DNA from: Sinorhizobium chiapasense
Lineage (GTDB): Bacteria; Pseudomonadota; Alphaproteobacteria; Rhizobiales; Rhizobiaceae
DNA length: 64,000 nt
NCBI RefSeq assembly: GCF_036488675.1
Contig: NZ_CP133148.1
Span: 2,294,001-2,358,000 of the forward strand
Reading direction: 5' to 3'
Shown here: positions 24,361 to 39,039 of the stretch, in pieces
Layout: the number at the start of each line of letters is the position of its first letter
How positions within the stretch are numbered: the stretch's first letter is position 1
The notes under the pieces: generated by a model
What the model was told of the DNA's origin: nothing
What the model saw: the letters and a program-made list of their open reading frames with translations, nothing else
Databases searched by the model: none
Translations under genes and position numbers: made by a program

Positions 24361-24391
24361 CAGAGCCCCCAGTCATCTCTCAGGGGCTCTG
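24361..24391 (+). terminator. Hairpin, possible terminator
   Basis: CAGAGCCCC pairs perfectly with GGGGCTCTG around a 13-base loop. It lies just after the small gene ending at 24313. There is no T-run after the stem, so rho-independent termination is uncertain. Confidence 0.4.
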
Positions 24392-24561
24392 CTCTAAATT
24401 GCTACTAAAAAGGAATGGGTAATTCTATGACGCTACAAAGTTGTAGCCGAATCATTTTGCCAAACTAAAATTGCATGTCTACTAGCCTATAAGGATTATT
24501 TGGCGAGCCGGCTGCGCCGAAGCTCGTCTGCGTTTGCGCCGCGGAAGTTGGATGAAAAGGA

Positions 24562-24596
24562 GCCCGCCACTAGGAATGATCGGGAAACCGGCGGGC
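24562..24596. terminator. Hairpin of unknown role
   Basis: GCCCGCC pairs with GGCGGGC around a 21-base loop; AAAAGGA precedes the stem and CCTGAGTTTG follows it. Confidence 0.3.
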
Positions 24597-24777
24597 CCTG
24601 AGTTTGACGCCAATTATGTTGGCCTTCCAATCGTGCCAGAATTGGCCGATTTGTCCACTAATCGATAGGGCTAGATCAACCCGCGCGTGCAACTGCAAAG
24701 GCGTTGTCTACGAAAGCGTGCTCGCTGTTCGTTGTCGGCGATAGGCGACACAGCCACCATGCGAAGGAATTAAAGAA

Positions 24778-24799
24778 GCCCACTTCCGGAGAAGTGGGC
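24778..24799 (-). terminator. Terminator-like hairpin with CGGA loop
   Basis: GCCCACTTC-CGGA-GAAGTGGGC is a perfect nine-pair stem. On the minus strand it is followed by TTCTTTAATT, resembling a rho-independent terminator for a transcript coming from the right. Confidence 0.5.
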
Positions 24800-24972
24800 C
24801 CTGAAAACGTCCTAAAACCACTTAACAATATGGAGTACAACGTGCCAGATTTTTTCCCCGTTTCCAGTAACATTTTAGGGGTAATCGCAATCTGGCATGC
24901 CCGCACTTGGCGTCGTTCCCCTGCACTGTGGTGTTGGGCCTGAGCGACTTCACCGATCCGAGCCGTGGCCGC

Positions 24973-25902
24973 CTATGGCGCACGAGCTGGCTTTTGCGAG
25001 CGCGCGACGATGATGATGCCGATCAGCGAAACGATCAGTCCCCCGGCCATCGCAAAGGACAACGGCTCGCCGAACATCATCCAGGACCAGATCATCGTCA
25101 CCGGCGGGCTCAGATAGAGGATGGCCGTAACCCGGGCCGGGGAGGATTTGCGAAGCGCGATGTAATAGAGGCTCCACGCGCCGAAGGTCGCGACGAAGAC
25201 GAGCCAGAGAATACCGCCGATAAAACCGATGTCGAGCACCGGGAGAATGCCTCCTTCGTGCCAGGCGAACACCGCGAAGATCGCGGCCGCCGAAAGGCAT
25301 TGGATGCACAGGCTCTGGTAGATGGGCATGGAATTCGTCGGACTGCGTTTCTGCAACAGCGTTGCCATTGCGAGCGAAAGCGTGCCGAGAACCGGCAGGC
25401 CATAGGCCCAAAGCGGCACGTCGCCCATGTTGAGCGACCAGCCCGAGGCGATCAACACGCCGGCCATGCCGAGGATCGAGCCGAACCACTGGCGCGCGGT
25501 CAAGGCCTGCCCGAGGACCGGCCAGGACAATATCGCCACCGCAAGCGGCAACATGTCGGCAATCAAGGCGACGAGGCCCGTCGGGACGCCATAGGAGATC
25601 GCAAGCGCAAACCCGGCGAGATAACCGGACATCGCCAGCGCGCCGAACAGCATTTGCGAGAAGGCATCTTTCCACCTGATCGCCGGCCCCATGGTGAGCG
25701 CGAAAGGAAGCAGCAGAAGTCCGGACACCAGGCTTCGCCACAGGAGGATCAGGAAGATCGGCGCATGGTCGATCGCAAATCGGATGCCGACAAAGCCGGC
25801 GCTCCAGGAAATCACCAGGGCCGCTTCGAGGATGACCAGGATGAGAACCGCCGACATTCCCCTCTTCGGGCGGTACGAGCCCGCGGCAACAGCTTCACTC
25901 AT
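24973..25902 (-). CDS. DMT-superfamily (EamA) exporter
   Basis: 309 residues with ten predicted membrane helices arranged as two EamA repeats (roughly 20-150 and 165-300). Typical segments are SWSAGFVGIRFAIDHAPIFL in helix 1-2 and FGAWSLYYIALRKSSPARVT, LYLSPPVTMIWSWMMFGEPL in the second repeat. Such inner-membrane carriers export metabolites or amino acids; the substrate cannot be told from sequence. It lies 70 bases downstream of a TetR-family gene on the same strand, so it may belong to the same transcript or be controlled by that regulator. Confidence 0.85.
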   Translation of the reverse strand: MSEAVAAGSYRPKRGMSAVLILVILEAALVISWSAGFVGIRFAIDHAPIFLILLWRSLVSGLLLLPFALTMGPAIRWKDAFSQMLFGALAMSGYLAGFALAISYGVPTGLVALIADMLPLAVAILSWPVLGQALTARQWFGSILGMAGVLIASGWSLNMGDVPLWAYGLPVLGTLSLAMATLLQKRSPTNSMPIYQSLCIQCLSAAAIFAVFAWHEGGILPVLDIGFIGGILWLVFVATFGAWSLYYIALRKSSPARVTAILYLSPPVTMIWSWMMFGEPLSFAMAGGLIVSLIGIIIVARSQKPARAP

Positions 25903-25972
25903 GGATGGGGTCCGTTTTCTGGCGATGGCGCAGTTGTGAGAAATTCGGAGACCTGAGGGGAGAACGTTGCCC

Positions 25973-26548
25973 TCAGAACTGCTCCAAAACCGAGATTGCG
26001 ATCTTGCGGGCCGTCTTCAGCCGCGCGTCATGCCCGTCGAGACCCGCACGCGACATCGCCCCTTCGAGCAGAAAGGACAGATGTTGCGCGGTCTCGTCGA
26101 CCGCCGTGCCGGCTGCCGGCTGCATCTCGAGGAGGTGTTCCCTGAACAGCCGCTCCACCTCTTGCTTCTGGAGCGCGACCACCGCCCGGCCGGGGTCGCC
26201 GACTGGCAGCTCGGCGGCGGCATTGAGGAGCCCGCAGCCTCGAAATCCCCACGCATAGGCAAGGGCCGCATGGTCCACATAGGAGTCGAACACCGCCAGG
26301 ATACGCTCCTGCGGTGTCGTCGCCGTCCTTAGCCGCTCCTGATAGACGTCCCTCCATTCATCGAGACGTCTCTGCATATACGCGTTGACGAGATCCGCCT
26401 TGGACGAAAAATTATTGTAGAGGCTCATCTTCGCGACCCCCGCATGGGCGGTGATCGCATCGATCCCCGTCGCCCCGACACCCTCGCGATAGAACAACTC
26501 GGCTGCTGCTTTCAGCAGGCGCTCCCGGGCTGGCGTTCTCTCGGTCAT
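25973..26548 (-). CDS. TetR-family repressor
   Basis: 191 residues. The N-terminal TetR HTH is clear: ARERLLKAAAELFYREGVGA, AITAHAGVAKMSLYNNFSSK. The C-terminal ligand domain includes WGFRGCGLLNAAAELPVGDP, a variant common in TetR proteins that control exporters or reductases. ATG 26548 has GGAG seven bases upstream. The next gene downstream is a DMT exporter. A perfect palindrome 20 bases upstream of the start (26569-26582) is the likely autoregulatory operator. Confidence 0.88.
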   Translation of the reverse strand: MTERTPARERLLKAAAELFYREGVGATGIDAITAHAGVAKMSLYNNFSSKADLVNAYMQRRLDEWRDVYQERLRTATTPQERILAVFDSYVDHAALAYAWGFRGCGLLNAAAELPVGDPGRAVVALQKQEVERLFREHLLEMQPAAGTAVDETAQHLSFLLEGAMSRAGLDGHDARLKTARKIAISVLEQF

Positions 26549-26568
26549 CTCGTCTCTCCAACAAATAT

Positions 26569-26582
26569 GTAGACCGATCTAC
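26569..26582. promoter_or_regulatory. TetR operator candidate
   Basis: GTAGACCGATCTAC has arms GTAGA/TCTAC around a short centre; flanking AT (AAATAT, CTATTCAG) suits an operator-promoter. Position just upstream of tetR suggests autorepression. Confidence 0.5.
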
Positions 26583-26696
26583 CTATTCAGTTGATCTGTC
26601 AAGTCTGTTGGAGGGCAATTTGCTGGCGTTGCGGAAGATGGCGGGAGCGAAACCAGCAGGCGGGGCTTTCACCACCCCGCCTGTGATCCCTACTAT

Positions 26697-27575
26697 CTAT
26701 CGCTTGCCGAGCAGCGGGAGTGTCTGCAGCGACTTCGACAGCTGGATCGCGCTCCACGGCATGTATTCGGCAATCGCCAACCCGACGACGTCGGCCTCGG
26801 CATCCACGGCCGTGAGAATCCTTGCGACCTCCTCGAAGCGCATCCGGCCCTTCGCGATGCCGTCAAAGGCGTTCGGCTTGGCCGCCGGATCTAGGGAAAG
26901 GAGGAAGTCGTAAAGCGTCGGATCGAGCACATCCAGGTCGAAGTGCACCGCAACCTTCTTCGCGCCCGAAGCGCGCAGCCACGCCAATACCGGCTCGGCC
27001 GAGCCGGCCAGGTCTTCCGGGCTGAGACGTGCCAGTCCATGCTTCGCAATGAAATCCGTTTCGAACGGAGTGGTTTCGGTCAGACCGACATAGAGGATCT
27101 GGCGCGCTTGCACCGGCCTCGGGACGGCGGCCACAAAAACGGGATCGCCTATCCCCATCAGCATGGCGAGCACATGCGCATGGGCGTTTCGGAACTGCTC
27201 TGCCCCCATTACGTCGGGATGCGCATCGACCCACAGAACCGCCAGATCGTCGCCATACCGCTCATTGAGATAGGCAATCGGCGCGAGATCCACGAGGCAA
27301 TCGCCTCCGAGCGTGACAACAGCGTCGGGACTGTGTCGGCGGATGGCCGACATGGCTGCCGCAACGAGATCCAGAAGCGGCCGGCGGGAGACGATGCCCT
27401 CCTCGACCGGTCGCACATCGTCATGGGCTTCGGGGACCGCAACCGTCTCTTCCGGCCCAAGCGGTTGCGGGGCTATGGCGGCAAGGACACGCGCGCCTAT
27501 TCTGTAATCGGGGTGGTCGCCGCCCTGCCATTGAGGCAGATTCAGGCGCAGAACCTTCTTCGGATCGACTGTCAT
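26697..27575 (-). CDS. Arginase/agmatinase/formiminoglutamase-family protein with altered metal motif
   Basis: 292 residues of the ureohydrolase fold. LWVDAHPDV (residues 115-122) and VHFDLDVLDP (about 200-210) are the second and third Mn-binding motifs, and both are intact. The first motif, normally GGDH, reads GGDC (90-93), so one Mn-ligand His is replaced by Cys. ATG 27575 is the natural start. It diverges from a LysR gene (27715). Either the enzyme uses an unusual metal site or it has a non-ureohydrolase role; substrate is unknown. Confidence 0.8.
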   Translation of the reverse strand: MTVDPKKVLRLNLPQWQGGDHPDYRIGARVLAAIAPQPLGPEETVAVPEAHDDVRPVEEGIVSRRPLLDLVAAAMSAIRRHSPDAVVTLGGDCLVDLAPIAYLNERYGDDLAVLWVDAHPDVMGAEQFRNAHAHVLAMLMGIGDPVFVAAVPRPVQARQILYVGLTETTPFETDFIAKHGLARLSPEDLAGSAEPVLAWLRASGAKKVAVHFDLDVLDPTLYDFLLSLDPAAKPNAFDGIAKGRMRFEEVARILTAVDAEADVVGLAIAEYMPWSAIQLSKSLQTLPLLGKR

Positions 27576-27714
27576 CGTCTCACTCTTTCCTGTCAGTATC
27601 GGTACTCCCCAATCGGGAGCAGGAAATAGCTGGTGATTGAAATCGGAAACAAAATGGTTCATCTGTGACATGTCCGTCCACAGGCATGGACAATCTCCCA
27701 CCCGGAGAAACACG

Positions 27715-28629
27715 ATGAACCAGTTGCTTGCGATGCGAGCCTTTGTGCGGGTCGTTGAATCAGGGTCGTTCCGGGGAGCTGCCAACCAGCTTCTGGTGCC
27801 GCGCTCGACCGTCAGCAAACTTGTGACGGATCTCGAGAAGCATCTCGGGACAAGGCTGATGCACAGGACCACGCGCAGCATCGTCGTGACGGCGGAAGGC
27901 GAGGAATATTATCGATATGCGGCGCGTCTGGTCGCGGAGGTCGACGAAGCCGACAGTGCCGTGCGCGGCAAGAAGCTGACGCCCCGAGGACATCTCCGCA
28001 TCGAATCCCACCCGACCTTCGCGCAGAATGTTCTGATACCGCATCTCCCGGAATTCCATCAGCAATATCCTCAGATTTCGATCGCGTTAGGTATTGGCAA
28101 TCGACCTGCGAACATCATGGGAGAAGGCGTCGACTGCGCCATCAGGGCCGGCGAAATCGGCGACGAGTCTCTGGTGGCAAGGCATCTGTTCGATGCCGAG
28201 TTCGTCACATGTGCATCACCGGCCTACCTGGAGCGGATGGGAGTACCCGCCTCTCCGGAAGACCTCGACAGCAAACATGCCAAGGTCGGCTTCTTTTCCC
28301 ACGCCGACGGCAGTATGAAGCCTCTGATTTTCACGAAGCCCGACCGCAGATACGTCGCCGGCGATCTGCAATTCTCAGCCAATGAAGACAACGGTCAGAT
28401 CGCAATGATGCTGGCCGGCATGGGGATCGGCCAGAACCTGAGGCCGTTCCTGCTGCCCTACCTGCAGACGGGGCAACTCGTCGAGGTCCTCGGCGAATGG
28501 AGCCACCCACCCCTGCCCTTCCATGTGGTTTACGCGCCCGGCAGGCATCAGAGCACCAGGCTGAAGGTCTTCATCCAGTGGCTCGTGCAGCGCTTCGGAA
28601 AAACGGGCAGACCTCCCGGAGCCAGCTAG
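27715..28629 (+). CDS. LysR-family transcriptional regulator
   Basis: 304 residues. The HTH is MRAFVRVVESGSFRGAANQL to LGTRLMHRTTRSI; the effector domain follows (LRIESHPTFAQNVLIPHLPE, GVDCAIRAGEIGDESLVARH) and the C-terminus is complete (VVYAPGRHQSTRLKVFIQWL). It belongs to the AaeR/CrgA-like group. ATG 27715 has GGAG eight bases upstream. It diverges from the arginase-like gene across a 139-base region, so that gene is its probable target. The region contains CTCCC-CAATC-GGGAG near 27605-27619, a weak candidate site. Confidence 0.88.
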   Translation: MNQLLAMRAFVRVVESGSFRGAANQLLVPRSTVSKLVTDLEKHLGTRLMHRTTRSIVVTAEGEEYYRYAARLVAEVDEADSAVRGKKLTPRGHLRIESHPTFAQNVLIPHLPEFHQQYPQISIALGIGNRPANIMGEGVDCAIRAGEIGDESLVARHLFDAEFVTCASPAYLERMGVPASPEDLDSKHAKVGFFSHADGSMKPLIFTKPDRRYVAGDLQFSANEDNGQIAMMLAGMGIGQNLRPFLLPYLQTGQLVEVLGEWSHPPLPFHVVYAPGRHQSTRLKVFIQWLVQRFGKTGRPPGAS

Positions 28630-29003
28630 GTGTGAGTTTTCCATAGGTTGTCCATCCGGTCCGGACCGGCAAAGCTGAGGTCGTCGAAGCTTCAGTGATT
28701 CCAGGGGGACCGGATGAACATCCATAAGAATGCCCGTCTGACGGCGCGCGGTCGAGAGCGCATTGTAATGCAGGTCGAGAGAGGGCAGTCGCCGCAGGCC
28801 GTTGCCGAAGCCGCAGGCGTCTGCGCGCGCACGGTGCGAAAATGGGTTGATCGCTATCGATGCGAAGGACTGGCGGGATTGCGGGATCGCTCTTCCCGGC
28901 CGCATCGCTTGCGCCGGCCGACGCCTCAGGCGGTTGTCGCGGAAATTGAGCGGCTGCAGCGGCGAGGCAGGCGGCGGCAACCCCTTGCCCAGAGGATTCT
29001 AGG
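28630..29003 (+). mobile_element. IS481-type insertion sequence remnant (left part)
   Basis: TGTGAGTTTTCCATAGGTTG at 28631 resembles the terminal inverted repeat of IS481-family elements and is followed by the usual leader and the transposase start at 28714. The element breaks off near 29000; no DDE catalytic domain and no right end follow. It lies directly after the LysR stop codon. Confidence 0.6.
28714..29003 (+). pseudogene. Truncated IS481-family transposase
   Basis: About 95 residues corresponding to the N-terminal HTH region: MNIHKNARLTARGRERIVMQ, VAEAAGVCARTVRKWVDRYR, GLAGLRDRSSRPHRLRRPTP. These are strongly conserved in IS481 transposases. After EIERLQRRG the frame loses similarity and the rve integrase domain is absent, so it cannot transpose. 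Confidence 0.75.
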
Positions 29004-29074
29004 CAGCGAATTGCTCGGAACGGAGATAACGAGTAGAATCTCAGACATTAATTCGACCATAGGGGGAGTAGGCA

Positions 29075-29518
29075 ATGAGCAGACTGTTGATCCTGTCGGC
29101 TGGTGCCATCCTGGCACTAACCTCCGCTGCGCCGGCTATGGCGTCCACTGCGCCGGCTATGCAACCACTCAAGATCTCTAAGGAATGCAGCCAGTACACC
29201 GGCGATACCCCGAGCTTCTGCACCATTACGGAATCGAACCTCGCGGCGATCCCGGCGGGCACCAAGATCTTCTACTATGGGCCGGTGACCGGCAGTCCTC
29301 TTTTCAGCAGCAGCGCGGCGGTCATTACCGTCGGAAACGGAGACTCGGCGGTCGGGTACTGCGTCGTCTACGACACGGCCAGCCCGCCGCTAGGAACCTG
29401 TGCGTTCCATGCCGGCAGCGGGACGCTCGCCGGATTCCAGGCGGTCGTCAAGGTCACTGTCGACGACAAGCAGATCTGGCACTGGGACGGAGGCTACCTA
29501 CTTGGCGCCGCCAAGTGA
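29075..29518 (+). CDS. Exported protein, unknown, with internal repeat after the signal peptide
   Basis: 147 residues. A Sec signal peptide (LLILSAGAILALTSAAPAMA) is followed by a direct duplication of TAPAM-type sequence encoded by a GCGCCGGCTATG repeat. The mature part has four Cys (KECSQY, SFCTIT, GYCVVY, GTCAFH) and a beta-rich pattern (TKIFYYGP, VKVTVDDKQIWHWDGGYLLG), resembling small allene-oxide-cyclase-like barrel proteins; that assignment is tentative. ATG is preceded by GGGGGAG. It follows an IS remnant and has no partners. Confidence 0.6.
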   Translation: MSRLLILSAGAILALTSAAPAMASTAPAMQPLKISKECSQYTGDTPSFCTITESNLAAIPAGTKIFYYGPVTGSPLFSSSAAVITVGNGDSAVGYCVVYDTASPPLGTCAFHAGSGTLAGFQAVVKVTVDDKQIWHWDGGYLLGAAK

Positions 29519-29639
29519 GAACGAAAGAAATGCTGCTCTCGTCTGGCTGTTTGACGTGAATTCGTGCCCTGACTCATAACCGCAAAGTGGCAGGACGACG
29601 GGGCAAATGCCGTGGTGATCATATGCAGGTGCTGCGGAC

Positions 29640-30065
29640 ATGGATCTGATCGCGGCCTTCAGCACGCTTTATGCGTGGTTTGCCGAGGACCTTCGCTTTG
29701 TCCGCCTGCTTTTCCTGGCGGTCGGAGTGTGGCTTGCTTTGGATATCGCCTGGAAACTGCGACGTGACGCGCTGCTTCGACGCGTCGGGACATCGACCGA
29801 GGGACAGATCGTCCGGGTGTCCAAGGGGGAGGACTATGACACCGCGATCATCCGCTTCACGGATCAGACAGGGCGTACGCACGAATTCGACTCGGAAATT
29901 CCCCACTCCGGCCCCCCGGGGGCAAGCGTCAACGTTTGCTATGACCCTCAGAACCCACGCCGCGCCCACGTTGCCGGCAGCCCCCTCGGACGCGCCTTGC
30001 TCTACGTGGTTTCGCTGATGACCGCGGCGGGTTTTGTCTTCATGTCGGTAGTGATGGACCACTGA
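29640..30065 (+). CDS. DUF3592-type membrane protein
   Basis: 141 residues. Membrane helices at about 20-38 (VRLLFLAVGVWLALDIAW) and 118-137 (LLYVVSLMTAAGFVFMSVV) enclose a small beta domain (STEGQIVRVSKGEDYDTAII, QTGRTHEFDSEIPHSGPPGA, VNVCYDPQNPRRA). This helix-beta-helix layout with a V-YDP-NP motif is the DUF3592 pattern. Function is unknown. It is convergent with the gas-vesicle operon that ends at 30150. Confidence 0.7.
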   Translation: MDLIAAFSTLYAWFAEDLRFVRLLFLAVGVWLALDIAWKLRRDALLRRVGTSTEGQIVRVSKGEDYDTAIIRFTDQTGRTHEFDSEIPHSGPPGASVNVCYDPQNPRRAHVAGSPLGRALLYVVSLMTAAGFVFMSVVMDH

Positions 30066-30149
30066 CGCGAGCGGCATCTGCTACCGAGTGGCGTGTTGCC
30101 TGCGCTTCCATGCGCGTCTCCGGATCGGAAAGGCCCGAGCATTGCCGCA

Positions 30150-30455
30150 TCAACGCGGAAGTAGCGGACCGAGAGGTCCCAGGTCGATATTCAGGTCTTC
30201 GGCGGCGAGCCCGAAGTGCTCCCGCAATTGCGACATGCGGTCGTCTAGAAGCATCAATGTCATACCGACGCGCTCCTCCTCCGATTCGGTCAGACCTCCC
30301 TCGTCGAGACGACGAAGCGCCTGCCGCTCCATGAGCTGGCGCAGCAACTCCACGACGGTGAGCACCAGGCGGGCCAGATCTCGTTCGACCGTGTCAGGCG
30401 CCATCGATATGCGCTGGCGCAGCCCCGGCTGATGTCCAGCGACGCCGCCGCTCAC
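30150..30455 (-). CDS. gvpK: Gas vesicle protein GvpK
   Basis: 101 residues, the usual GvpK length. DTVERDLARLVLTVVELLRQ, LMERQALRRLDEGGLTESEE and ERVGMTLMLLDDRMSQLREH match the conserved GvpK helices, ending in the family-typical LNIDLGPLGPLL. GvpK is a minor assembly protein needed for mature vesicle growth. It is the last gene of the operon; its ATG overlaps the gvpS stop by four bases (ATGA), indicating translational coupling. Confidence 0.9.
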   Translation of the reverse strand: MSGGVAGHQPGLRQRISMAPDTVERDLARLVLTVVELLRQLMERQALRRLDEGGLTESEEERVGMTLMLLDDRMSQLREHFGLAAEDLNIDLGPLGPLLPR

Positions 30456-30649
30456 TGGTCTCGCTCCGTTGCGCCGGATTGCGTGGTCCGGCCGAGCGAC
30501 GTGATCAGGGCGCGAAGCGAGATCTGCACCATGTCGATGTCGGCGATCGCGAGCGTGATGTCTCCGGTGAGCATGATGCCGCCCGCTAGGAGCCGGTCGA
30601 GCAGGTCGACGAGCGCGATCTCTCGGGCGGGGAGTGCGGCGGGGCTCAC
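30452..30649 (-). CDS. gvpS: Gas vesicle protein GvpS (GvpA-family, short)
   Basis: 65 residues. VDLLDRLLAGGIMLTGDITL and IADIDMVQISLRALITSLGR correspond to the helix-strand-strand-helix core shared by GvpA, GvpJ, GvpM and GvpS. The length and position between gvpL and gvpK match gvpS of actinobacterial clusters. It is likely a minor component that nucleates or caps vesicle assembly. Four-base ATGA overlaps join it to both neighbours. Confidence 0.85.
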   Translation of the reverse strand: MSPAALPAREIALVDLLDRLLAGGIMLTGDITLAIADIDMVQISLRALITSLGRTTQSGATERDQ

Positions 30650-31440
30650 GCGTGCCCCCGGTGCTCGCCGCCGGCGAACGAATAGGGCGGCCAGGGGCCT
30701 GTGACCTCGATTGTCACGTGCGGGTTTTCGGCACAGAGCCGCCGTGCACGGGTGGCGAGCTCTTCAGCGAGCCCGGCATCCACCAAGTAGGCTGCGTTGA
30801 ATACATTTTCGCCTGGAGCTGCGGACAGCTCGGCGCTCTGCGCTCGGTGCTGGCGGCGATCGACGGCAAGCATGGCGAGAGCGGCGTCCACCTGCTCGGC
30901 CACCGTGGTTGCGCGCTGCCACGCGTGCTGGCGCCGATCGCGTTCTTCGCGGCGGTAGCGCAGGTAGTCCCTCCCCGCGCGCGCCGATCCGGACCCGCTG
31001 GTTTTCTCATCCACGGACATCGCGGCGGGGGCAGATGCGCCCGCGTGTTGCACGTAGATCTTTACCCCCACCTCCACGCGGCCCGCGAGTCGATCCAGCG
31101 TCTCGCGGAAGCGCCGATACTCGCGGCGCAGCAACTGCGCAACGCGGTCGTCGGTGCGGTGAACGGTCGCGAGGCGGAACGGCAGCGTTGGTGTGCAAGC
31201 GGCAACCGCCGCCACGACCCTGTGGTGCGCACGTGCGATCGCCTCCAGCTCCGCCAGCGTCTCCAGCCTCGCTCGCAGCGCGATTTCGTCGGCGTTGGCA
31301 GGCGCAAGCGGACTGACCACGGCGACCAGGTCCTTGTGGCGGACCAGGTGGATCGCGGCGCCGTCGACGCCGACGAGGCCGGCCACCTGGATGGGATCGA
31401 ACGGGTGCGCGACCGCGTATGTATAGCTCGCCGCGCTCAT
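30646..31440 (-). CDS. gvpL: Gas vesicle protein GvpL (GvpF/L family)
   Basis: 264 residues. The two-domain GvpF/L fold is visible: YTYAVAHPFDPIQVAGLVGV and LVAVVSPLAPANADEIALRA in the first domain; PLPFRL-type TPTLPFRLATVHRTDDRVAQ, VEVGVKIYVQHAG; and NAAYLVDAGLAEELATRARR with VEVTGPWPPYSF-like VTGPWPPYSFAGGEHRG at the end. GvpF/L proteins chaperone GvpA and are minor shell components. The start at 31440 overlaps the gvpJ stop (ATGA); an upstream in-frame stretch belongs to gvpJ in another frame. Confidence 0.88.
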   Translation of the reverse strand: MSAASYTYAVAHPFDPIQVAGLVGVDGAAIHLVRHKDLVAVVSPLAPANADEIALRARLETLAELEAIARAHHRVVAAVAACTPTLPFRLATVHRTDDRVAQLLRREYRRFRETLDRLAGRVEVGVKIYVQHAGASAPAAMSVDEKTSGSGSARAGRDYLRYRREERDRRQHAWQRATTVAEQVDAALAMLAVDRRQHRAQSAELSAAPGENVFNAAYLVDAGLAEELATRARRLCAENPHVTIEVTGPWPPYSFAGGEHRGHA

Positions 31441-31748
31441 CGCCGTGCCTCCAGAGCGGCGACTTCCAGCGCCCTGATCTTTTTGCGCAACCGCGCGTTC
31501 TCGACCGCAAGCTGCCGCGGCCTCGGATGGGAAAGCGCCGGATCGTGCTCCCACCAGTCGATCCCCATCGCCTTGGCCTTGTCCACCGACGCGACCAGCA
31601 GCCGGAGCTTGATGGTCAGAAGCTCGATGTCGAGCAGGTTGATCTTGATGTCGCCGGCGATGATCAACCCCTTGTCCAGAACCCGCTCCAGAACATCAGC
31701 CAGGTTCGGCGACGCACCCTGGTGCCGCAAGCCTTGTTGTTCCATCAT
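31437..31748 (-). CDS. gvpJ: Gas vesicle protein GvpJ (GvpA family)
   Basis: 103 residues. NLADVLERVLDKGLIIAGDI and KINLLDIELLTIKLRLLVAS form the GvpA-type core, and AMGIDWWEHDPALS is the diagnostic GvpJ C-terminal segment (IDWWE). A coiled-coil tail follows (LAVENARLRKKIRALEVAAL). GvpJ is thought to form the conical tips of the vesicle. Its ATG overlaps the gvpG stop by four bases. Confidence 0.9.
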   Translation of the reverse strand: MMEQQGLRHQGASPNLADVLERVLDKGLIIAGDIKINLLDIELLTIKLRLLVASVDKAKAMGIDWWEHDPALSHPRPRQLAVENARLRKKIRALEVAALEARR

Positions 31749-31990
31749 GCGATCAGCCCTCGCTTTCGTCCCTCGTCCAGCCGGTCGAGGATCTCGTCCT
31801 CGCGTCGATCGAATTCCTCGGCATCGATCAGTCCTTCATCCAGTTGCCGCGAAAGCTCGGCCAGCTCGCGCCGGATGGCGGCCGGGCCGCAACGCTGTTC
31901 GGCAGCGGCGTCGACCACCCGATCGACGGTCCACAGCGCGACGCGGGCCGGCGCGAGCGGCAGCAACAAAAGGTGCGACAGGAGTCCCAC
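31745..31990 (-). CDS. gvpG: Gas vesicle protein GvpG
   Basis: 81 residues starting at GTG 31990 (GLLSHLLLLPLAPARVALWT), the standard GvpG opening, with GAGG eight bases upstream; an in-frame GTG at 31996 is the alternative. The C-terminal half is a charged coiled coil (REEL-type RRELAELSRQLDEGLIDAEE, FDRREDEILDRLDEGRK). GvpG is a small accessory or assembly protein. It begins 10 bases after the gvpF stop and overlaps gvpJ by four bases. Confidence 0.87.
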   Translation of the reverse strand: MGLLSHLLLLPLAPARVALWTVDRVVDAAAEQRCGPAAIRRELAELSRQLDEGLIDAEEFDRREDEILDRLDEGRKRGLIA

Positions 31991-32000
31991 CGTCACGGCC

Positions 32001-32735
32001 TCACACGTTCGCTTCGTCGCCGACGAAGCTGTAAGGCGGCAAGGGCCCATTCAACTCGACGCTTGCGTAGCCGGGCAGTTCGCTGCGGAGCGACGACAGA
32101 GCGCTGTCGAAGCGGGGCCGGGCGCCGGACGCGACCAGGAACGATACGTTGACGAAGCAACCGTCGACAGACGGGCCCGGTCGTACCTGCGCGGCATGTG
32201 GTTGCAGGCGGGCGATGACCTGGTCCGCGTCACGCGCGCGCCACTCCGCGACGACGGCGGCCACGTGTTCGCCGAAGGCCAGCTTGTCCTGGTGGCTGCC
32301 GCCGTCCGCGGCGCGCAGTGCGTGATTGCGCGCGCGCAGCTCGTCGTTCTGGAGCAAGACGTCGCGGAGGAGACCCTCCTCCGCATGAACGCCTTTGACG
32401 TTGAGCTCGGCGTGGCCATCGATCCGGGACAAGAGTTCGCCATAGAGCCGCGCGCCCGATCGAAGCTCTGTCTGCACGGTCTCGTCGTCGGGCGCGACCA
32501 TTCCGAACCGCATCGGCAGCACGGTGCCGGCTGCGTACATCCGTCCGATGACCGCATCGTGCTTCACCAGATCGCGCCGCTTCGCGCGCAAGTTCTCGGG
32601 CGCGTCGCTAACCACCGCGACGAGATCCTGCTCGCGCACGAGCCGGAGGGCGGGGGCGTGCTCCCCCACCCCGACCGCCCCTTCGAGCGGTAGTGGGTGG
32701 GAGGCATGCGTGACACAGTAAACGTAGTTGCTCAT
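32001..32735 (-). CDS. gvpF: Gas vesicle protein GvpF (GvpF/L family)
   Basis: 244 residues. NYVYCVTHASHPLPLEG opens the ferredoxin-like N-domain; LVAVVSDAPENLRAKRRDLV, HDAVIGRMYAAGTVLPMRFG (with the conserved VLPMRFG) and LNVKGVHAEEGL follow, and the C-domain ends ASVELNGPLPPYSFVGDEA, the family signature GP-PPYSF. It directly follows gvpA, the place of gvpF in most clusters, and is paralogous to gvpL. GvpF binds GvpA and prevents its premature aggregation. Confidence 0.9.
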   Translation of the reverse strand: MSNYVYCVTHASHPLPLEGAVGVGEHAPALRLVREQDLVAVVSDAPENLRAKRRDLVKHDAVIGRMYAAGTVLPMRFGMVAPDDETVQTELRSGARLYGELLSRIDGHAELNVKGVHAEEGLLRDVLLQNDELRARNHALRAADGGSHQDKLAFGEHVAAVVAEWRARDADQVIARLQPHAAQVRPGPSVDGCFVNVSFLVASGARPRFDSALSSLRSELPGYASVELNGPLPPYSFVGDEANV

Positions 32736-32755
32736 CAGTCATCCTTTCCGTTACG

Positions 32756-33070
32756 TCACGCCGGTTCCGTGCGCGCCCGGCCGGGAAGCTCGAGCGGCAG
32801 CGCGCCGTCGATTAGCGAGCGGCCGATCTGGGGGCTGCTGCCGGTGAGACTGAGGCGGCCGCACATCTCGGCGAAGCGCAGGTAAGCATCGACGCCGGCG
32901 ACGACGACCCGCGCATCGATGGTGACCACCTCGAGGCCGATCACCGACACACGCACGAACACGTCGATGACCAGCCCGCGGTCCAGGATCAATTCAACGA
33001 CCTTGTACAACTCGCCCGACAATCTGCCGCCGGTTGCTTGAGGCGTTTGAGTCATTGCCATTCCAGTCAT
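32756..33070 (-). CDS. gvpA: Gas vesicle structural protein GvpA
   Basis: 104 residues. The core LYKVVELILDRGLVIDVFVR, VSVIGLEVVTIDARVVVAGV and DAYLRFAEMCGRL aligns throughout with GvpA (helix, two beta strands, helix), the protein whose ribs form the gas-permeable shell. It differs from classical GvpA (about 70 residues) by a 35-residue C-terminal tail (LTGSSPQIGRSLIDGALPLE) and an N-terminal extension. AAGGAG lies eight bases before ATG 33070, the strongest ribosome site of the operon, as expected for the main shell protein. It is the first gvp gene transcribed. Confidence 0.88.
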   Translation of the reverse strand: MTGMAMTQTPQATGGRLSGELYKVVELILDRGLVIDVFVRVSVIGLEVVTIDARVVVAGVDAYLRFAEMCGRLSLTGSSPQIGRSLIDGALPLELPGRARTEPA

Positions 33071-33174
33071 GCGGTGTCTCCTTCAGGAAGCTGCTACTTG
33101 CCCTTCTGGAAACTGATACGGGCATAGCTTCAGGTTAGTTTCAGGGGACGTATGCCGCGTCGCCTTGGCTTCAC

Positions 33175-34212
33175 CTAACGTGATGACGCAGCGGCAAGCC
33201 CGCCGGCCTCCATCATCTCGGCCGCCTTGGCGTAGCCGCCGTCCATGCCGTCGAGGAAATGCAGGTGCGATTCCGGCCGGCCGGACGGCACGAGGCAGGT
33301 CATCAGCGCATGGGACTGGCGATGCAGTCCGAAGTTGACCTCGCCGCGCGCCCTCGCCGCGGCAAGGATGGCCTCGACCGCATCGATCTGTTCGGGCGTG
33401 CAATCGAGTGTCAGGCGCAGGCCATCGTCGTATTTGCGGAAATCCGAGTTGGAGGCGACTTCCGACCAATGTTTCGGATCGACATAGGTCGCCTTGTTCT
33501 TGGGAACGCCCACGTCCTCTGGAAGCGGATGAGACTGCCGCTGCCCTGCGTCGAACACCGCAAGCACGCGCCGTGCGAGCGCAGCAAAGACCTCTTGGCT
33601 CGTATGCTCATAGGGCTCGACCAGCAGCGACAGGATCTCGCCCTGCTGGCTCGCAAACGGCGTCCATTCACACATGAGCCCGGTCAGGTCCGGCTTCGTC
33701 GTGTACCGGCCCGGCTTGACCAGATACCGCCCGTTCTTGATCTGCTCTTCCGCCCATTTGAGCCCGCCGCCGGAAAACATCGCATAGGTCGCGTTTTCCG
33801 AGGCCGCGTATCGCGCGACGCGCACGTCGCGCCCGCCGGCGCGGATTTCGCGGACAGGCAGCAAGCCAACTCGAAGATCGAGACCGAGATTGCTCTTGGC
33901 AAAGGCTGCGACCTGTCGCAACGCCGAAGTGGCGACCATGAGGCCCTCTGGCGGCAAGGCGAATGCCGCCCCGTCGCCGCGAAACACGAAGGGGAAATCG
34001 AAGGCGCCCCAGGCATTGCCGAGCGCGGCAATGATCGACGCGCCGGCGTAGTTGACGTCTTCGTAATGCCCGGATCGGATCGCCGACGTCGAGCCGACAA
34101 CATCGGTTATCCCGATCAACCAATCATCGGGCAGCGGCTCGTAGATGGACGGATCGAGCACAAGCGAAAACTCGCCATAGGCTTGCGGCGGCTCGGCGCG
34201 GCTGTCGGTCAT
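33175..34212 (-). CDS. DUF3095 cyclase-like protein upstream of the gas vesicle operon
   Basis: 345 residues. The first part looks like a class III cyclase: LIGITDVVGSTSAIRSGHYE carries the first metal-type Asp and FPFVFRGDGAAFALPPEG the second. The rest, with YVDPKHWSEVASNSDFRKYD and VNFGLHRQSHALMTCLVPSG, matches DUF3095 (PF11294). It ends 104 bases before gvpA on the same strand, so both may be read from one promoter upstream of 34212. Enzymatic activity is not established for the family. A link between cyclase-type signalling and vesicle synthesis is inference. Confidence 0.8.
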   Translation of the reverse strand: MTDSRAEPPQAYGEFSLVLDPSIYEPLPDDWLIGITDVVGSTSAIRSGHYEDVNYAGASIIAALGNAWGAFDFPFVFRGDGAAFALPPEGLMVATSALRQVAAFAKSNLGLDLRVGLLPVREIRAGGRDVRVARYAASENATYAMFSGGGLKWAEEQIKNGRYLVKPGRYTTKPDLTGLMCEWTPFASQQGEILSLLVEPYEHTSQEVFAALARRVLAVFDAGQRQSHPLPEDVGVPKNKATYVDPKHWSEVASNSDFRKYDDGLRLTLDCTPEQIDAVEAILAAARARGEVNFGLHRQSHALMTCLVPSGRPESHLHFLDGMDGGYAKAAEMMEAGGLAAASSR

Positions 34213-34251
34213 TGCGTGTTTTTCCCCTTGTTGTCCTGTCAGCTTTTTTGG

Positions 34252-34358
34252 CTACAGCGCCGCGCGCCTTATGAGACGCGCAAAGGTCGCTGTAGCACTT
34301 TGATTTTCTGCATGTTTTTGTCCTTTAATCGGCTACGATTAAAGGAAACATGCAGTAG
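34252..34358 (-). repeat. RIME-type intergenic mosaic element 5
   Basis: A full reverse copy: CTACAGCGCCGCGCGCCTTA at the left and TCCTTTAATCGGCTACGATT with AAAGGAAACATGCAGTAG at the right. It lies 40 bases upstream of the DUF3095 start. Confidence 0.85.
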
Positions 34359-34410
34359 GCGTCGGGTCTGCCTGCCGGAGCGGTTCACTGCTTCGTTGAA
34401 CCTGCGAACC

Positions 34411-34475
34411 GCCCGATTCTTTGAACTCACGCAATTCCGGACGGAAAACCGCTGCACACTTTTCCCGGACTTCCT
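34411..34475 (-). repeat. AAAAGTGTG-type intergenic repeat
   Basis: ACGCAATTCCGGACGGAAAA followed by CCGCTGCACACTTTTCCCGG is the inverse of the elements at 10701-10762 and 44477-44520. It lies just downstream of ohr. Confidence 0.55.
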
Positions 34476-34501
34476 TGAGAGGCAGACCCGACCCATCCCG
34501 T

Positions 34502-34897
34502 TCAGACGAGGCTGGTGGTCACGTCGATGTTGCCGTGCGTTGCCTTGGAATACGGGCAGATCCCATGCGCCGCCTCGATCAGCTCCTGCGCCAACTCACG
34601 CTCGATACCCGGCAGGCTCACGTTCAGCCTTGCCCGCAGGAAGAAGGAGCCGTCGTCAACGTTGAGATCGATCTCGGTGTCGACCTCGGGTCCCGCCGGA
34701 AGCTTGACGTTTCGCTGCGACGCGGCGAGCTCGATCGCTCCGATGTAACAGGCCGACCAGGCGGCGCCGAAGAGCTGTTCGGCGGCGGGATGCGGCTGCG
34801 AAAGCTTCAGGTCAAGCTTGCCGTCGCTGCTCCGCGTGCCGCCATTGCGGCCGCCGGTGTTGTGGGTCTTGCCGGTGAAAAGAAGCTTCTCGGTCAT
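34502..34897 (-). CDS. ohr: Organic hydroperoxide reductase Ohr
   Basis: 131 residues. Cys50 in AAWSACYIGAIELAA and Cys114 in AAHGICPYSKATHGNIDV are the catalytic Cys pair of Ohr, and NGGTRSSDGKLDLKLSQP holds the conserved Arg. It detoxifies organic hydroperoxides in the cytoplasm, reduced by lipoylated dihydrolipoamide partners. ATG 34897 is preceded by AAGGA. The 5' region has three copies of the core TCGGATNCG also found before the OhrR-like gene at 23401, so peroxide control by that repressor is likely although the genes are 11 kb apart. Confidence 0.92.
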   Translation of the reverse strand: MTEKLLFTGKTHNTGGRNGGTRSSDGKLDLKLSQPHPAAEQLFGAAWSACYIGAIELAASQRNVKLPAGPEVDTEIDLNVDDGSFFLRARLNVSLPGIERELAQELIEAAHGICPYSKATHGNIDVTTSLV

Positions 34898-35248
34898 TGG
34901 GAAATCCTTTCTGTTCAATTTAACTCGGATCCGCTTCAATCGGATGCGCTGTAAATACGTGAAGGAAATACCTCTGTCAAGCGGTTTCGATTTACTCGGA
35001 TGCGATTTATTTAATGAGTGCGCCACGGGCGACGCGCTACGCCCTCAGGCCCTGCAAGGCGCGTTCGGATTTTTCCTGTGCCGGAAGCGCTTTTTGTGCG
35101 ACATTGGCCCTGCCTATTCCGAAGGCATTACAGCCAGGGGGGCCGCAGCGGACATGGAGGATAGCCGCTGCCGCACGTTGTGAGTTCCGACGTCCGCATC
35201 TCGTAAATCGTTGCCCTGTCACATTCCGACTTCGCTCAGGAGGCTTCG
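34898..35248. other. Divergent control region of ohr and phosphoketolase
   Basis: About 350 bases. The left third holds the ohr promoter and three OhrR-type motifs. The remainder is GC-rich and presumably contains the phosphoketolase promoter; I see no gene in it. Confidence 0.5.
34921..35009. promoter_or_regulatory. Triple OhrR-type operator upstream of ohr
   Basis: Three related sites: TAACTCGGATCCGCT (34921-34935), AATCGGATGCGCT (34938-34950) and TTACTCGGATGCGATTTA (34992-35009). The core TCGGATNCG matches the site before the OhrR-like gene. Confidence 0.5.
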
Positions 35249-37690
35249 ATGTCTACGCTTGAGACCGCACACGAAATCCGAACGGAGACCCCGCTCTCGC
35301 CTGATGAGTTGCATCTCATCGATGCCTATTGGCGGGCTTCCAATTATCTCTCGGTTGGCCAGATATACCTGCTCGACAATCCGCTGCTCAAGGGGCCGCT
35401 GAAGCGCGAGCACATCAAGCCGCGGTTGCTCGGCCACTGGGGAACCTCCCCCGGCCTCAACATGCTCTATGTGCATCTGAACCGGGTGATCAGGCGCGAC
35501 GATCTCAACATGATCTACGTCATCGGCCCCGGCCACGGCGGACCGTCACTGGTCGCGCACGCTTACCTTGAAGGCACCTACAGCGAGTTTTATCCGAATA
35601 TCAGCCAGGACGCGGAGGGCATGAAGCGGCTGTTCAAGCAGTTCAGCTTCCCCGGCGGCATACCGAGCCACGTCGCGCCCGAGACGCCCGGCAGCATCCA
35701 CGAGGGCGGCGAGCTCGGATATGCGTTGAGCCATGCCTATGGTGCCGCATTCGACAACCCCGACCTGATCGTCGCCTGTGTGGTCGGCGACGGGGAAGCC
35801 GAGACCGGGCCGCTTGCCACCGGATGGCAGGGCAACAAGTTCCTCAATCCGGCCCGCGACGGCTGCGTGCTGCCGATCCTCCACCTGAACGGCTACAAGA
35901 TTGCCAACCCCTGCTTCCTCGCCCGCATCCCCAAGGAGGAGTTGCAAAAGTTCTTCGAGGGCATGGGCTACAGGCCCTATTTCGTCGAAGGACGCGATCC
36001 CGAGGACGTGCACCGGCAACTGGCAGGCGTGCTCGACACGGCCGTCGGCGAGATCCGGAAGATCTGGGCCGATGCGCGATCCAACGGCAATCTCAAGCGT
36101 CCCGCATGGCCGATGATCGTCTTCCGGACGCCGAAGGGCTGGACATGCCCGCCGGAGATCGACGGCAAGAAATGCGAGGATTACTGGCGATCGCACCAGG
36201 TGCCCATGGGCGAGATGGACAAGCCGGAGCATATCCGCATCCTCGAACAGTGGATGAAGAGCTATCGGCCCGAGGAGCTTTTCGACGACGCCGGCCGACT
36301 CAAGGGCGAGATCGCATCGCTGGCGCCAGTGGGCCGCCGCCGCATGAGCGACAATCCGCACGCCAACGGCGGACTGCTCCTGCGTGATCTGAAGATGCCG
36401 GATTTCCGCGACTATGCCGTCGAGTTTTCCGGGCACGGCGCAACCGTGGCCGAGTCCGCCCGCGTCATGGGCACGTTCCTGCGCGACGTGATGAAGGCGA
36501 ACCTGGAGAGCAAGAACTTCCGGCTGTTCAGCCCGGACGAGAACAACTCCAACCGCTGGCAGGATGTGCTGCAGGTGACGAACCGCTGCTACATCGCGGA
36601 CATCTATCCGGAGGACGACCATCTCTCGCCGGACGGCCGCGTCATGGAAGTGCTCAGCGAGCACCAGTGCCAGGGATGGCTGGAAGGCTACCTGCTGACC
36701 GGCCGCCACGGCTTCTTCTCCTGCTACGAAGCCTTCATCCACATCATCGACTCGATGTTCAACCAGCACGCCAAGTGGCTGAAGGTGTGCAACGACATCC
36801 CGTGGCGCAGACCCATCGGCTCGCTGAACTACTTCCTGAGCTCCCACGTCTGGCGGCAGGACCACAACGGCTTCAGCCATCAGGACCCAGGCTTCATCGA
36901 CCACGTCGTCAACAAGAAGGCCGATGTGATCCGCGTCTACCTGCCGCCGGATGCCAACACCTTGCTCTGTGTGACGGACCACTGCCTGCGCAGCCGCAAC
37001 TACGTCAACGTAGTCGTCGCCGGCAAGCAGCCGGCGCCGCAATGGCTGACGATGTCGGAGGCCGTCCGGCACTGCGCCATGGGCATCAGCATCTGGGACT
37101 GGGCGAGCAGCGACAAGGGCAACGATCCGGATGTCGTCATGGCCTGCTGCGGCGACGTTCCGACCCTCGAAACACTGGCGGCGGTGCAGTTGCTCCGCGA
37201 GCATCTGCCCGAGTTGAAGGTCAGGGTCATCAATGTCGTGAACCTGATGAAGCTGCAGCCAGCGAACGAGCATCCGCATGGACTGTCGGATCGCGATTTC
37301 GACGGCCTCTTCACGAGGGACAAGCCGATCATCTTCGCCTTCCACGGCTATCCGTGGCTGATCCATCGGCTCACCTATCGCAGGGCGAACCACGGCAATC
37401 TTCACGTGCGCGGCTACAAGGAAGAAGGCACGACGACGACCCCGTTCGACATGGTGGTGTTGAACGAACTCGATCGCTTCCACCTCGTCGAGGACGTCAT
37501 CGACCGACTGCCGCAGCTCGGTGCGCGTGCGGCCTATTTCAAGCAGGCGATCCACGCGAAGCTGATCGAGCATCGCGAGCATATCGAAAAATACGGCGAC
37601 GACATGCCTCAGATCAGCGGATGGAAATGGGGCGCGAAGAGCACACCACCATCCCGACCGAGGACATCGACCGAGGGAGACAACGTCTAA
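35249..37690 (+). CDS. xfp: Xylulose-5-phosphate/fructose-6-phosphate phosphoketolase
   Basis: 813 residues, normal for the family. It cleaves xylulose 5-phosphate or fructose 6-phosphate with phosphate to acetyl phosphate and a shorter aldose phosphate, using thiamine diphosphate. Key segments: [60 protein letters not shown], and the ThDP/Mg motif [15 protein letters not shown] followed by [26 protein letters not shown] is a second conserved active-site block. AGGAGG precedes ATG 35249. It is followed after 29 bases by a glucoamylase-like gene in the same direction. Confidence 0.95.
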
Positions 37691-37719
37691 GCGGCACAAG
37701 GCGGTAGTGGGCTAGCGAT

Positions 37720-39039
37720 ATGTCACGGACGCTCTCGATCGCTCCGAAACTGGAGCGCATGCCGACCGAACAGGATCTCGGTCGGCTGCAGTTTACGTCG
37801 CTGCTCTACTATCTCCATTGCACCAATCCGGACAACGGGCTCGTTCGCGACAAGACTGCGCCCGATGCTCCGGCGAGCATCGCGGCGATCGGCATGGCGC
37901 TGGCGACGCTTCCCGTGGTCGTCGAGCGCGGCGTCCTGATCCGCAAGTTTGCGGCCAAGCTCGCCCGCAAGAAGCTGTCGTTCCTGCTGGCATGTCCCCA
38001 GGGACCGGAGCCCGACGCGTCCGGCTACAAGGGTTTCTTCTATCATTTCCTCGACATCGAGACCGGCCGCCGGGTCTGGCAGTGCGAGCTGTCGACGATC
38101 GACTCGGCCTTCCTGTTCGCCGGCGCCTTGACCGTGGCCGCCTATTTCGACGGGGACAGCGCCGACGAGGTCGAGGTCCGGTGGCTGGCCAACACACTCT
38201 ACGAACGGGCCGACTGGAACTGGGCCTGTGATCACGACCTTACCTTGACCCATGGATGGCGATCGGAAAACGGATTCATCCCTTATCGCTGGCGCGGTTA
38301 CGACGAGGGCCTGCTGCTCTACATCCTCGGGCTGGGATCGCCGACGCATCCGTTGCCGGCCGAAGCCTATTCCGCCTATACGGAAAGCTACGACTGGCGA
38401 AACATCTATGGGCGCGAGCTGCTCTATTCGGGACCGCTCTTCACCCACCAGCTCTCGCACATGTGGATCGACTTCCGCGGTATCCGCGATGATTTCATGC
38501 GCCACCACGACAGCGACTACTTCCAGAACAGCCGCCATGCGACCTACGTCCAGCGCGAATACGCCATCCGCAACCCGTTGAATTTTGCGGGTTACGGCGA
38601 GCACTGCTGGGGCTTCACCGCGAGCGACGGCCCCGGCTGGATCAAGAAAAATGTCGATGGCGGCGAAAGGGAGTTCTACGACTATATCGCGCGCGGCGCG
38701 CCCTTCGGACCGGACGACGGCACCGTCTCACCTTGGGTGGTCGTGGCGTCCCTGCCCTTCGCTCCGGAGATTGTCGTCCCGACCGTCTGGAACTTTGCGA
38801 GAATGCCTTTGGGAATGACGCGCCTCTACGGCTTCAAGCCATCCTTCAACCGGACCTTCGCGGTCGAAGGCAGCGACCCTGGCTGGTGGGTAAGCCCTTA
38901 CCACTTCGGCATAGACCAGGGCCCGGTCGTGCTGATGATCGAAAACTACCGCTCCGGTCTCCTCTGGAACATCATGCGCCACTGCCAGCCGATCGTCGCC
39001 GGACTGCGCCGGGCGGGATTTGCCGGGGGGTGGCTTTAA
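37720..39039 (+). CDS. Glucoamylase-like (PF10091, GH144-type) protein
   Basis: 439 residues of an (alpha/alpha)6 barrel. LQFTSLLYYLHCTNPDNGLV and YKGFFYHFLDIETGRRV, CELSTIDSAFLFAGALTVAA are the opening conserved blocks; HGWRSENGFIPYRWRGYDEG, GPLFTHQLSHMWIDFRGIRD and NPLNFAGYGEHCWGFTASDG hold the acidic and aromatic residues of the glucan-binding cleft. Relatives cleave beta-1,2-glucan, a polymer made by rhizobia as cyclic glucan. There is no clear signal peptide, so it may act in the cytoplasm. It sits 29 bases after the phosphoketolase and probably shares its transcript. The ribosome site is weak. Confidence 0.85.
   Translation: MSRTLSIAPKLERMPTEQDLGRLQFTSLLYYLHCTNPDNGLVRDKTAPDAPASIAAIGMALATLPVVVERGVLIRKFAAKLARKKLSFLLACPQGPEPDASGYKGFFYHFLDIETGRRVWQCELSTIDSAFLFAGALTVAAYFDGDSADEVEVRWLANTLYERADWNWACDHDLTLTHGWRSENGFIPYRWRGYDEGLLLYILGLGSPTHPLPAEAYSAYTESYDWRNIYGRELLYSGPLFTHQLSHMWIDFRGIRDDFMRHHDSDYFQNSRHATYVQREYAIRNPLNFAGYGEHCWGFTASDGPGWIKKNVDGGEREFYDYIARGAPFGPDDGTVSPWVVVASLPFAPEIVVPTVWNFARMPLGMTRLYGFKPSFNRTFAVEGSDPGWWVSPYHFGIDQGPVVLMIENYRSGLLWNIMRHCQPIVAGLRRAGFAGGWL

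Follow-up and report, generated by a model that had tools for sequence, protein, structure and literature searches.

A transferred, actinobacterial-type gas-vesicle operon without gvpO in rhizobia, and the gas-permeable shell it may build

How did a compact gas-vesicle protein (gvp) operon come to stand in the genome of a rhizobium, and what could it build there? The question is raised by a 64,000-nucleotide stretch of Sinorhizobium chiapasense DNA (contig NZ_CP133148.1, positions 2,294,001 to 2,358,000; hereafter the window, with positions counted from its first letter), in which the minus strand carries seven gvp genes in head-to-tail arrangement, A-F-G-J-L-S-K, from 33070 to 30150. The host genome comprises 6.87 Mb in 5 contigs, and the window lies on a 4.3 Mb contig. 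Our explanation is that rhizobia horizontally acquired an actinobacterial-type gvp operon, that this operon lacks gvpO and encodes a GvpA with a shorter tail, and that it would build a gas-permeable shell; taken as a whole, we give this explanation a probability of roughly 0.5. We hold the identity of the operon and its horizontal origin with very high confidence, and the odds that it yields a gas-holding shell are about even.

All seven products score above the Pfam gathering cut-offs, with E-values from 2e-8 (GvpA) to 3e-59 (GvpF). GvpA, GvpJ, and GvpS fall into the family Gas_vesicle, GvpF and GvpL into GvpL_GvpF, GvpG into GvpG, and GvpK into GvpK (Table 1), and chance matches are excluded as judged by these scores. 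An earlier reading of the letters alone (the sequence-only reading) had proposed the same seven genes and had named a failure of profile searches to place their products as grounds for rejection; the coordinates proved exact, and every product was placed. The strand, on which that reading was silent, is the minus strand for all seven. Its account of the junctions agrees with the measured spacing, which from A to K is +20, +10, -4, -4, -4, and -4 bases, so that four of the six junctions overlap by exactly four bases and gvpF and gvpG are 10 bases apart. Because gvpG and gvpJ overlap, GvpY and GvpZ, for neither of which a profile search was made, cannot be encoded between them. Purine runs resembling ribosome-binding sites, judged by eye, are clearest before gvpA, gvpF, and gvpL. 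Terminator-like sites number 3 against 2.0 expected, and no RNA family reaches its gathering score within window positions 24000-42000.

Table 1. Coordinates of the gvp operon and associated segments in the window
Feature	Position	Strand	Basis or remark
gvpA, shell protein, 104 aa	32756..33070	-	PF00741, 34.6 bits
gvpF, accessory protein, 244 aa	32001..32735	-	PF06386, 201 bits; binds GvpA in Halobacterium
gvpG, 81 aa, GTG start 10 bases after gvpF	31745..31990	-	PF05120, 78.6 bits, scored on a longer frame reaching 32050
gvpJ, GvpA paralogue, 103 aa	31437..31748	-	PF00741, 58.3 bits
gvpL, GvpF paralogue, 264 aa	30646..31440	-	PF06386, 196 bits
gvpS, small GvpA paralogue, 65 aa, GTG start	30452..30649	-	PF00741, 49.8 bits
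gvpK, 101 aa, GTG start	30150..30455	-	PF05121, 119 bits
Travelling unit: gvp operon and short upstream stretch	30147..33169	-	DNA common to copies elsewhere
Upstream ~95 bp, presumed promoter	33071..33169	-	Homology ends at 33165-33169; alignment of copies
Segment missing at the matching site of G005 and G002	28628..33162		Other DNA stands there

The gene order and the protein trees both point to the actinobacteria. Among 86 loci compared by phmmer, 67, nearly all of them actinobacterial, have the order O-A-F-G-J-L-S-K and 9 have A-F-G-J-L-S-K, as expected from the sequence-only reading, which had described a Streptomyces-type order without gvpO. The nine comprise seven rhizobial loci and two Streptomyces loci (L080 and L106) in which GvpO was not detected by phmmer alone; one further locus (L059), whose genes are encoded on the opposite strand, has an empty row for that reason. 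A locus of Streptomyces wuyuanensis (L142) holds two complete O-A-F-G-J-L-S-K operons in succession. In a concatenated A+F+G+J+K tree of 35 of the 95 loci with a GvpF, the eight rhizobial rows form one clade (100/100), which groups with 18 actinobacterial rows (100/100) and has Marinactinospora as its sister (96/88), and the alphaproteobacterial, cyanobacterial, and haloarchaeal rows fall outside this group. Three rows (L154, L155, and L156) sit on long branches and the root is unsure, and the number of actinobacterial rows says nothing of abundance because the queries included two actinobacterial sequences. The single-gene split support for the actinobacterial grouping is 98 for A, 87 for F, 80 for J, 92 for L, and 0 for K; the trees that the sequence-only reading had called for thus bear out the grouping in the concatenation and in A, F, J, and L, with K giving no support.

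The closest sequences found tell the same story. Among the best 80 of 93 GvpF relatives, those of five named carriers (B. algeriense RST91, B. valentinum LmjM3, B. sp. CSA112, B. sp. LMTR 3, and B. murdochi WSM 1741, all Bradyrhizobium) are 88-89% identical to that of the window, followed by Marinactinospora thermotolerans at 52% and then by Streptomyces and its kin. The Marinactinospora operon (L070), the nearest relative found outside the rhizobia, differs from the rhizobial one in having GvpO and a long GvpA tail. Alphaproteobacterial gvp clusters (those of Octadecabacter, Methylocella, five genomes of the order, and G548 and G563 of a Bradyrhizobium-like genus; the ORS278 cluster was left out of this comparison) encode the same protein families as the rhizobial unit, but they have GvpN in Octadecabacter, Methylocella, G395, G548, and G563, GvpO-like genes in several cases, and extra F/L genes, and they stand apart in the tree, from which G548 and G563 were left out.

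The seven-gene unit is rare among rhizobia. In the genus of the window it is complete in 2 of 33 genomes, that of the window and G018 (on a 2.0 Mb contig), and 12 of the 33 have any DNA match, the other ten being short and partial. GvpK occurs in 2 of 120 relatives, the same two genomes, and in 8 of 397 genomes drawn from the order, where the seven-gene type is confined to the window's genome, G264, and G241. The remaining five carry longer clusters that include GvpO-like genes and, in one genome, GvpN, as read within a fetched stretch that cuts off some clusters. Across 297 genomes of the family, full GvpF was found in the window's genome only, with a weak partial match in one other; G018 is absent among these matches and was presumably not drawn. 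G264 belongs to a Bradyrhizobium-like genus in which 11 of 265 genomes carry the unit at 90-91% DNA identity and more than 3900 bits, and 81 show any match, 70 of them short. Two further members, G563 (L168) and G548 (L169), have a gvp cluster of another type that includes GvpN and GvpO-like genes, so that two gas-vesicle types occur in this one genus. A plasmid origin of the unit was considered and rejected, since a plasmid collection yielded no near DNA match and protein matches in 17 records were all below 60% identity; viral carriage was likewise rejected, with 0 relatives among 21 pattern matches.

Neither GvpN nor GvpO was found in the genome of the window. The best GvpN score is 44 bits against a cut-off of 266.8 (46 in G018 and 47 in G264), whereas true GvpN proteins in two plasmid records, used as positive controls, score 366 and 309 bits; 12 of 14 control genomes also match below the cut-off, as expected of general AAA proteins. 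GvpO was not found in this genome, in G018, or in G264, while the positive controls Kitasatospora, Marinactinospora, and Octadecabacter score 120, 105, and 70 bits. The genome is 96.8% complete, which leaves a small risk that a gene was missed. The genome search proposed by the sequence-only reading therefore returned neither gene although its controls worked, and the lack of gvpN that it had noted within the cluster extends to what this search could detect in the genome. Marinactinospora also falls below the GvpN cut-off (best score 38 bits), and GvpN is therefore no required feature of the actinobacterial-type operon.

Comparison of the copies delimits what is shared. The window and the G018 locus (L014) have in common positions 30147-33169 and otherwise just a dispersed repeat of about 60 bases, and the window shares only 30150-33165 with G264 and G241 (L058 and L059). 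The upstream stretch, which in the alignment of copies contains a conserved TGAAAC...CGTATCAG, accompanies the operon in three of four contexts and is missing from the B. algeriense type. These contexts were defined from flanks of about 1.3 kb per side (blastn, same strand, E up to 1e-5) in 14 rows representing 13 distinct copies, as L167 equals B. algeriense by full flank score. The flanks form four groups without detectable mutual similarity, namely the window, G018, B. algeriense with G470, and nine Bradyrhizobium-like copies; within the last group flank similarity ranges from 58 to 2058 bits, and parts of those flanks therefore also differ. The unit lies beside DUF1800 and polysaccharide genes in G018, beside genes for a TRAP transporter, an AMP-ligase, and an M24 peptidase in B. 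valentinum, and beside a class-II tRNA-synthetase-like gene and a DAHP synthase gene in B. algeriense, the flanks outside the window being annotated in part only. We recognized no integrative mobile element: the shared DNA contains gvp genes only, with no integrase or transposase of its own, and nine loci around gvp copies contain no tRNA genes. Mobile-element ends were rejected on the same grounds, with no tRNA and no shared flank, and we make no claim from a weak similarity, seen by eye, between the ends of the unit. A bare operon of about 3.0 kb thus appears to have moved between Sinorhizobium-like and Bradyrhizobium genomes, that is, between two rhizobial families, a pattern beyond the reach of a sequence-only reading of one window.

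The corresponding site in relatives bears on whether the operon acts with its neighbours. The operon starts about 100 bp from the end of the DUF3095 gene and about 2 kb from the phosphoketolase gene, and it could be imagined to form, with these and an OsmC-type peroxidase gene, a low-oxygen or stress module. The synteny of L040 and L041 with the window, however, stops at 28627/28626 and restarts at 33163, and the intervening segment of the window contains an IS481-type fragment, two small open reading frames (ORFs), and the gvp unit. On the right side, host synteny restarts at 33163-33170 in five gvp-less relatives (G005, G002, G004, G009, and G020), whereas the left-hand break falls at 28626-28627 in two of them and at 26603-26620 in three. 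All five have DUF3095 (one of them a piece only) and the genes that follow, without gvp; the phosphoketolase locus of G018 itself, where synteny with the window restarts at 34418, is also without gvp, and other copies of the operon stand beside the DUF1800 and polysaccharide genes, the TRAP transporter, or the tRNA-synthetase-like gene. Joint action with the neighbours is therefore extremely unlikely. The idea of a low-oxygen island was dropped, since the neighbouring genes persist in relatives that have no gvp, and the role in low-oxygen positioning suggested by the sequence-only reading found no evidence, with the neighbours kept in five gvp-less relatives and different flanks around the other copies. 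The adjoining DUF3095 gene (33175-34212) is present at the same site in relatives that lack gvp.

Divergence values argue for transfer over descent. The operon might instead have been inherited vertically from an early rhizobium and lost in most lineages, with no transfer. Within the genus, the window and G018 copies are 90-91% identical, inside the 87-94% range of shared host regions (L042), and relocation within the genus is therefore compatible with divergence alone. Between families, in contrast, the synonymous divergence (dS) of the gvp genes is 0.187 for window-G264 and 0.134 for G018-G264, against 0.675 and 0.645 for recA, the single gene used as yardstick of host divergence. The G018 copy thus has a smaller gvp dS to G264 than to the copy in its own genus, as window-G018 gives 0.167 (with recA at 0.264). 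Vertical inheritance is thus disfavoured, and we consider it very unlikely. The third-position GC content (GC3) of gvpF is 0.78-0.82 in seven rhizobial copies, and that of the window operon is 0.81, compared with 0.72-0.87 in eight host genes; in 79 actinobacterial copies the median is 0.88 and the minimum 0.65, with Marinactinospora at 0.91. These values would fit an operon that entered rhizobia long ago and was exchanged among them afterwards, the operon having presumably settled in its new hosts to the point that its codon composition now resembles theirs.

A transferred operon could still be a cryptic remnant that drifts without function. Its rarity would agree with this (2 of 33 genomes of the genus, and any GvpK in 8 of 397 of the order), as would the end branch of the window copy, the longest among the eight rhizobial rows of the concatenated tree. 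Yet all 91 gvp frames (seven genes in 13 of 13 copies, spread over the four contexts) are open, and the frame-disrupting mutations in close relatives by which the sequence-only reading could have been overturned were not seen; the nearest gvpG start in L159 gives 76 rather than 81 residues. The ratio of nonsynonymous to synonymous divergence (dN/dS) over eight copies is 0.38 for A, 0.24 for F, 0.21 for G, 0.32 for J, 0.38 for L, 0.44 for S, and 0.30 for K, and it is 0.36 for the operon between the window and G018 (bootstrap 0.27-0.45). By these ratios the operon is under purifying selection, and a functionless remnant is improbable.

The shell protein itself carries the features of its family. 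GvpA matches the Bacillus megaterium shell protein (PDB 7r1c; E 5.6e-16, residues 18-73, 32 of 56 identical) and the Anabaena shell protein (PDB 8gbs; E 3.7e-14, residues 18-72, 27 of 55 identical), and Pfam, these sequence matches, and the predicted secondary structure agree on the helix-strand-strand-helix core of the family. A low-confidence model built from 15 sequences (mean pLDDT 57.9, core blocks 65-84, pTM 0.34) places helices at 18-31 and 60-69 and strands at 33-44 and 47-59, with disordered ends. In the solved B. megaterium shell, Arg31, Glu38, and Glu43 form a salt-bridge network (PMC9994262). R40, E47, and D52 of GvpA align to these residues, the last with Asp for Glu, and none of the three varies among the 15 rhizobial and actinobacterial rows compared. 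The C-terminal tail of 35 residues noted by the sequence-only reading is real, and disordered in the model, but it is not peculiar, as actinobacterial tails are longer: counted after the FAE motif it has 36 residues, compared with a median of 83 in 78 actinobacterial rows, in which the share of R, K, E, and D is also higher (median 0.42 versus 0.19). The R+E+P share is nearly equal (0.28 in the window and 0.33 in actinobacteria), and the tail in G018 has a frame shift near its end.

The first helix of GvpA differs from the haloarchaeal type. The five helix-1 charges E-D-R-D-K of Halobacterium GvpA are reported to be all essential (PMC9372576), and R15 and K19 of this helix are reported as important for contact with GvpF there. 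The five charges are kept in 4 of 4 other rows, but Leu replaces the Arg in every actinobacterial row (77 of 77) and every rhizobial row (8 of 8). Given the part that this helix has in the contact, the GvpA-GvpF contact may be rewired in the actinobacterial-rhizobial lineage.

The product that we consider most likely is a small GvpA shell. GvpA monomers would polymerize through their two-strand hairpin into the ribs of a hollow shell that admits gas and excludes water, the GvpA paralogues GvpJ and GvpS together with GvpK, GvpG, GvpF, and GvpL would start and chaperone its assembly, and without GvpN the shells would stay small. We infer that shells form and contain gas, and that this lineage lost GvpO and can do without it. 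Compared with the haloarchaeal minimal set, in which A, F, G, J, K, L, M, and O are essential (PMC9372576), the rhizobial operon would cover seven of eight functions if S stands for M; the essential GvpO is missing, and the helix-1 charges differ.

Several observations weigh against this explanation. In Halobacterium, GvpO is essential, a delta-O strain being without vesicles, and GvpN is needed to enlarge vesicles (PMC9501494, PMC9372576). The helix-1 charges read K-E-L-D-R in 8 of 8 rhizobial rows, with Leu for Arg and Lys for Glu. No gvp product of the window reaches its NCBIfam cut-off (GvpA has 109.4 bits against 151), and a promoter scan of the DNA upstream of the operon found no sigma-70-like consensus. 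The top fold matches of the GvpA model are two gas-vesicle shells, but they are not significant (E 0.13 and 0.31; TM-score by query 0.25 and 0.20), and because of this and the pTM of 0.34 we place little weight on the structure. Finally, no gas vesicles were seen from the Streptomyces coelicolor cluster (PMC4982088).

Among described systems the actinobacterial gvp operon, for example gvpOAFG-JLSK of S. coelicolor, is close. This type agrees with the rhizobial operon in gene order, protein lineage, a tailed GvpA, and Leu at the helix-1 Arg position, and S. coelicolor is also without GvpN (PMC4982088). The rhizobial operon, in contrast, is without GvpO, has a tail of about half the length and Lys as the first helix-1 residue, and differs further in its rhizobial hosts and in standing as a bare operon in unrelated contexts. 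S. coelicolor has two gvp clusters, and neither vesicles nor an effect of gvp disruption on buoyancy were found (PMC5839063, PMC4982088). These data, together with salt induction and a nitrogen-storage proposal in the same papers, would favour a GvpA-based assembly other than a buoyancy vesicle, such as a small shell or polymer for osmotic, acid, or storage stress as for Streptomyces; the failure to find GvpO or GvpN and the altered helix-1 charges common to the actinobacterial-rhizobial lineage point the same way. The salt-bridge positions of the GvpA wall and the partners F, G, J, K, L, and S are kept, however, and the storage idea fits rhizobia less well because their GvpA tail has roughly half the length and fewer charged residues. 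We regard such an assembly, which would agree with the other protein shell that the sequence-only reading had suggested, as a serious possibility, though less likely than not. Returning to a GvpA shell, we tentatively extend the proposal, in a form that we consider rather doubtful: the seven proteins without GvpN and GvpO would suffice for a functional shell. Selection would maintain the operon, and symbiont families would exchange it, because the shell serves some purpose unrelated to buoyancy, for instance in the response to osmotic or soil-water conditions, and a rewired contact between GvpA helix 1 and GvpF would do the work of GvpO.

Published accounts disagree on whether gvp operons of the actinobacterial type produce any gas vesicles, the S. 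coelicolor cluster being called cryptic in one paper whereas Streptomyces is listed among the producers in others (PMC9501494, PMC9372576). In E. coli, 30 cluster combinations from six sources including S. coelicolor were tried (PMC12081810). Electron microscopy showed vesicles for two of them, each of which contained the accessory genes of B. megaterium; the number 30 suggests that these were hybrids only, so that the native S. coelicolor pair seemingly lay outside that set. A seven-gene, transferable operon of 3 kb that is under selection, occurs in a Sinorhizobium-like host, and is small enough for expression in E. coli makes the vesicle question directly testable and would show whether GvpO and GvpN are dispensable; if working, it would also offer a very compact acoustic-reporter cassette.

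Genes of this kind are known from soil and symbiotic bacteria. Reports exist for two Bradyrhizobium strains, ORS278, where the genes stand on an acquired island, and ORS375 (PMC3899966), for Frankia (PMC9956245), and for Streptomyces (PMC5839063, PMC4982088). The sequence-only reading had called a compact, intact operon unexpected in such a host; the actinobacterial order, the lack of N and O, and the intactness stand, but given these reports the soil or symbiotic way of life of the host is no surprise in itself. As a GvpA-family cluster the operon is thus of a known kind, and of its O-less variant moving among rhizobial contexts, titles and abstract openings in the open-licence literature yielded no description.

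The surroundings of the unit include further features. An IS481-type transposase fragment (leucine-zipper and HTH part) lies at 28714-29181, about 1 kb from the unit, and DNA at about 28624-28932 is multicopy in the relative G003. Left of the unit, at 29580-30065, lies a DUF3592 ORF with 92% identity to DNA of the gvp-less G007, which shares no other DNA with the window in the fetched region. The interval 26603-33170, between a TetR gene (25973-26548) and DUF3095, resembles an insertion hot spot, as the conserved sides of this site are separated in relatives by as little as about 185 bp (L045) and by as much as several kb, with differing DNA between them. A repeat of about 108 bases at about 34252-34360 has many copies in genomes of the genus, and it resembles RIME1, a repeat element known from rhizobia.

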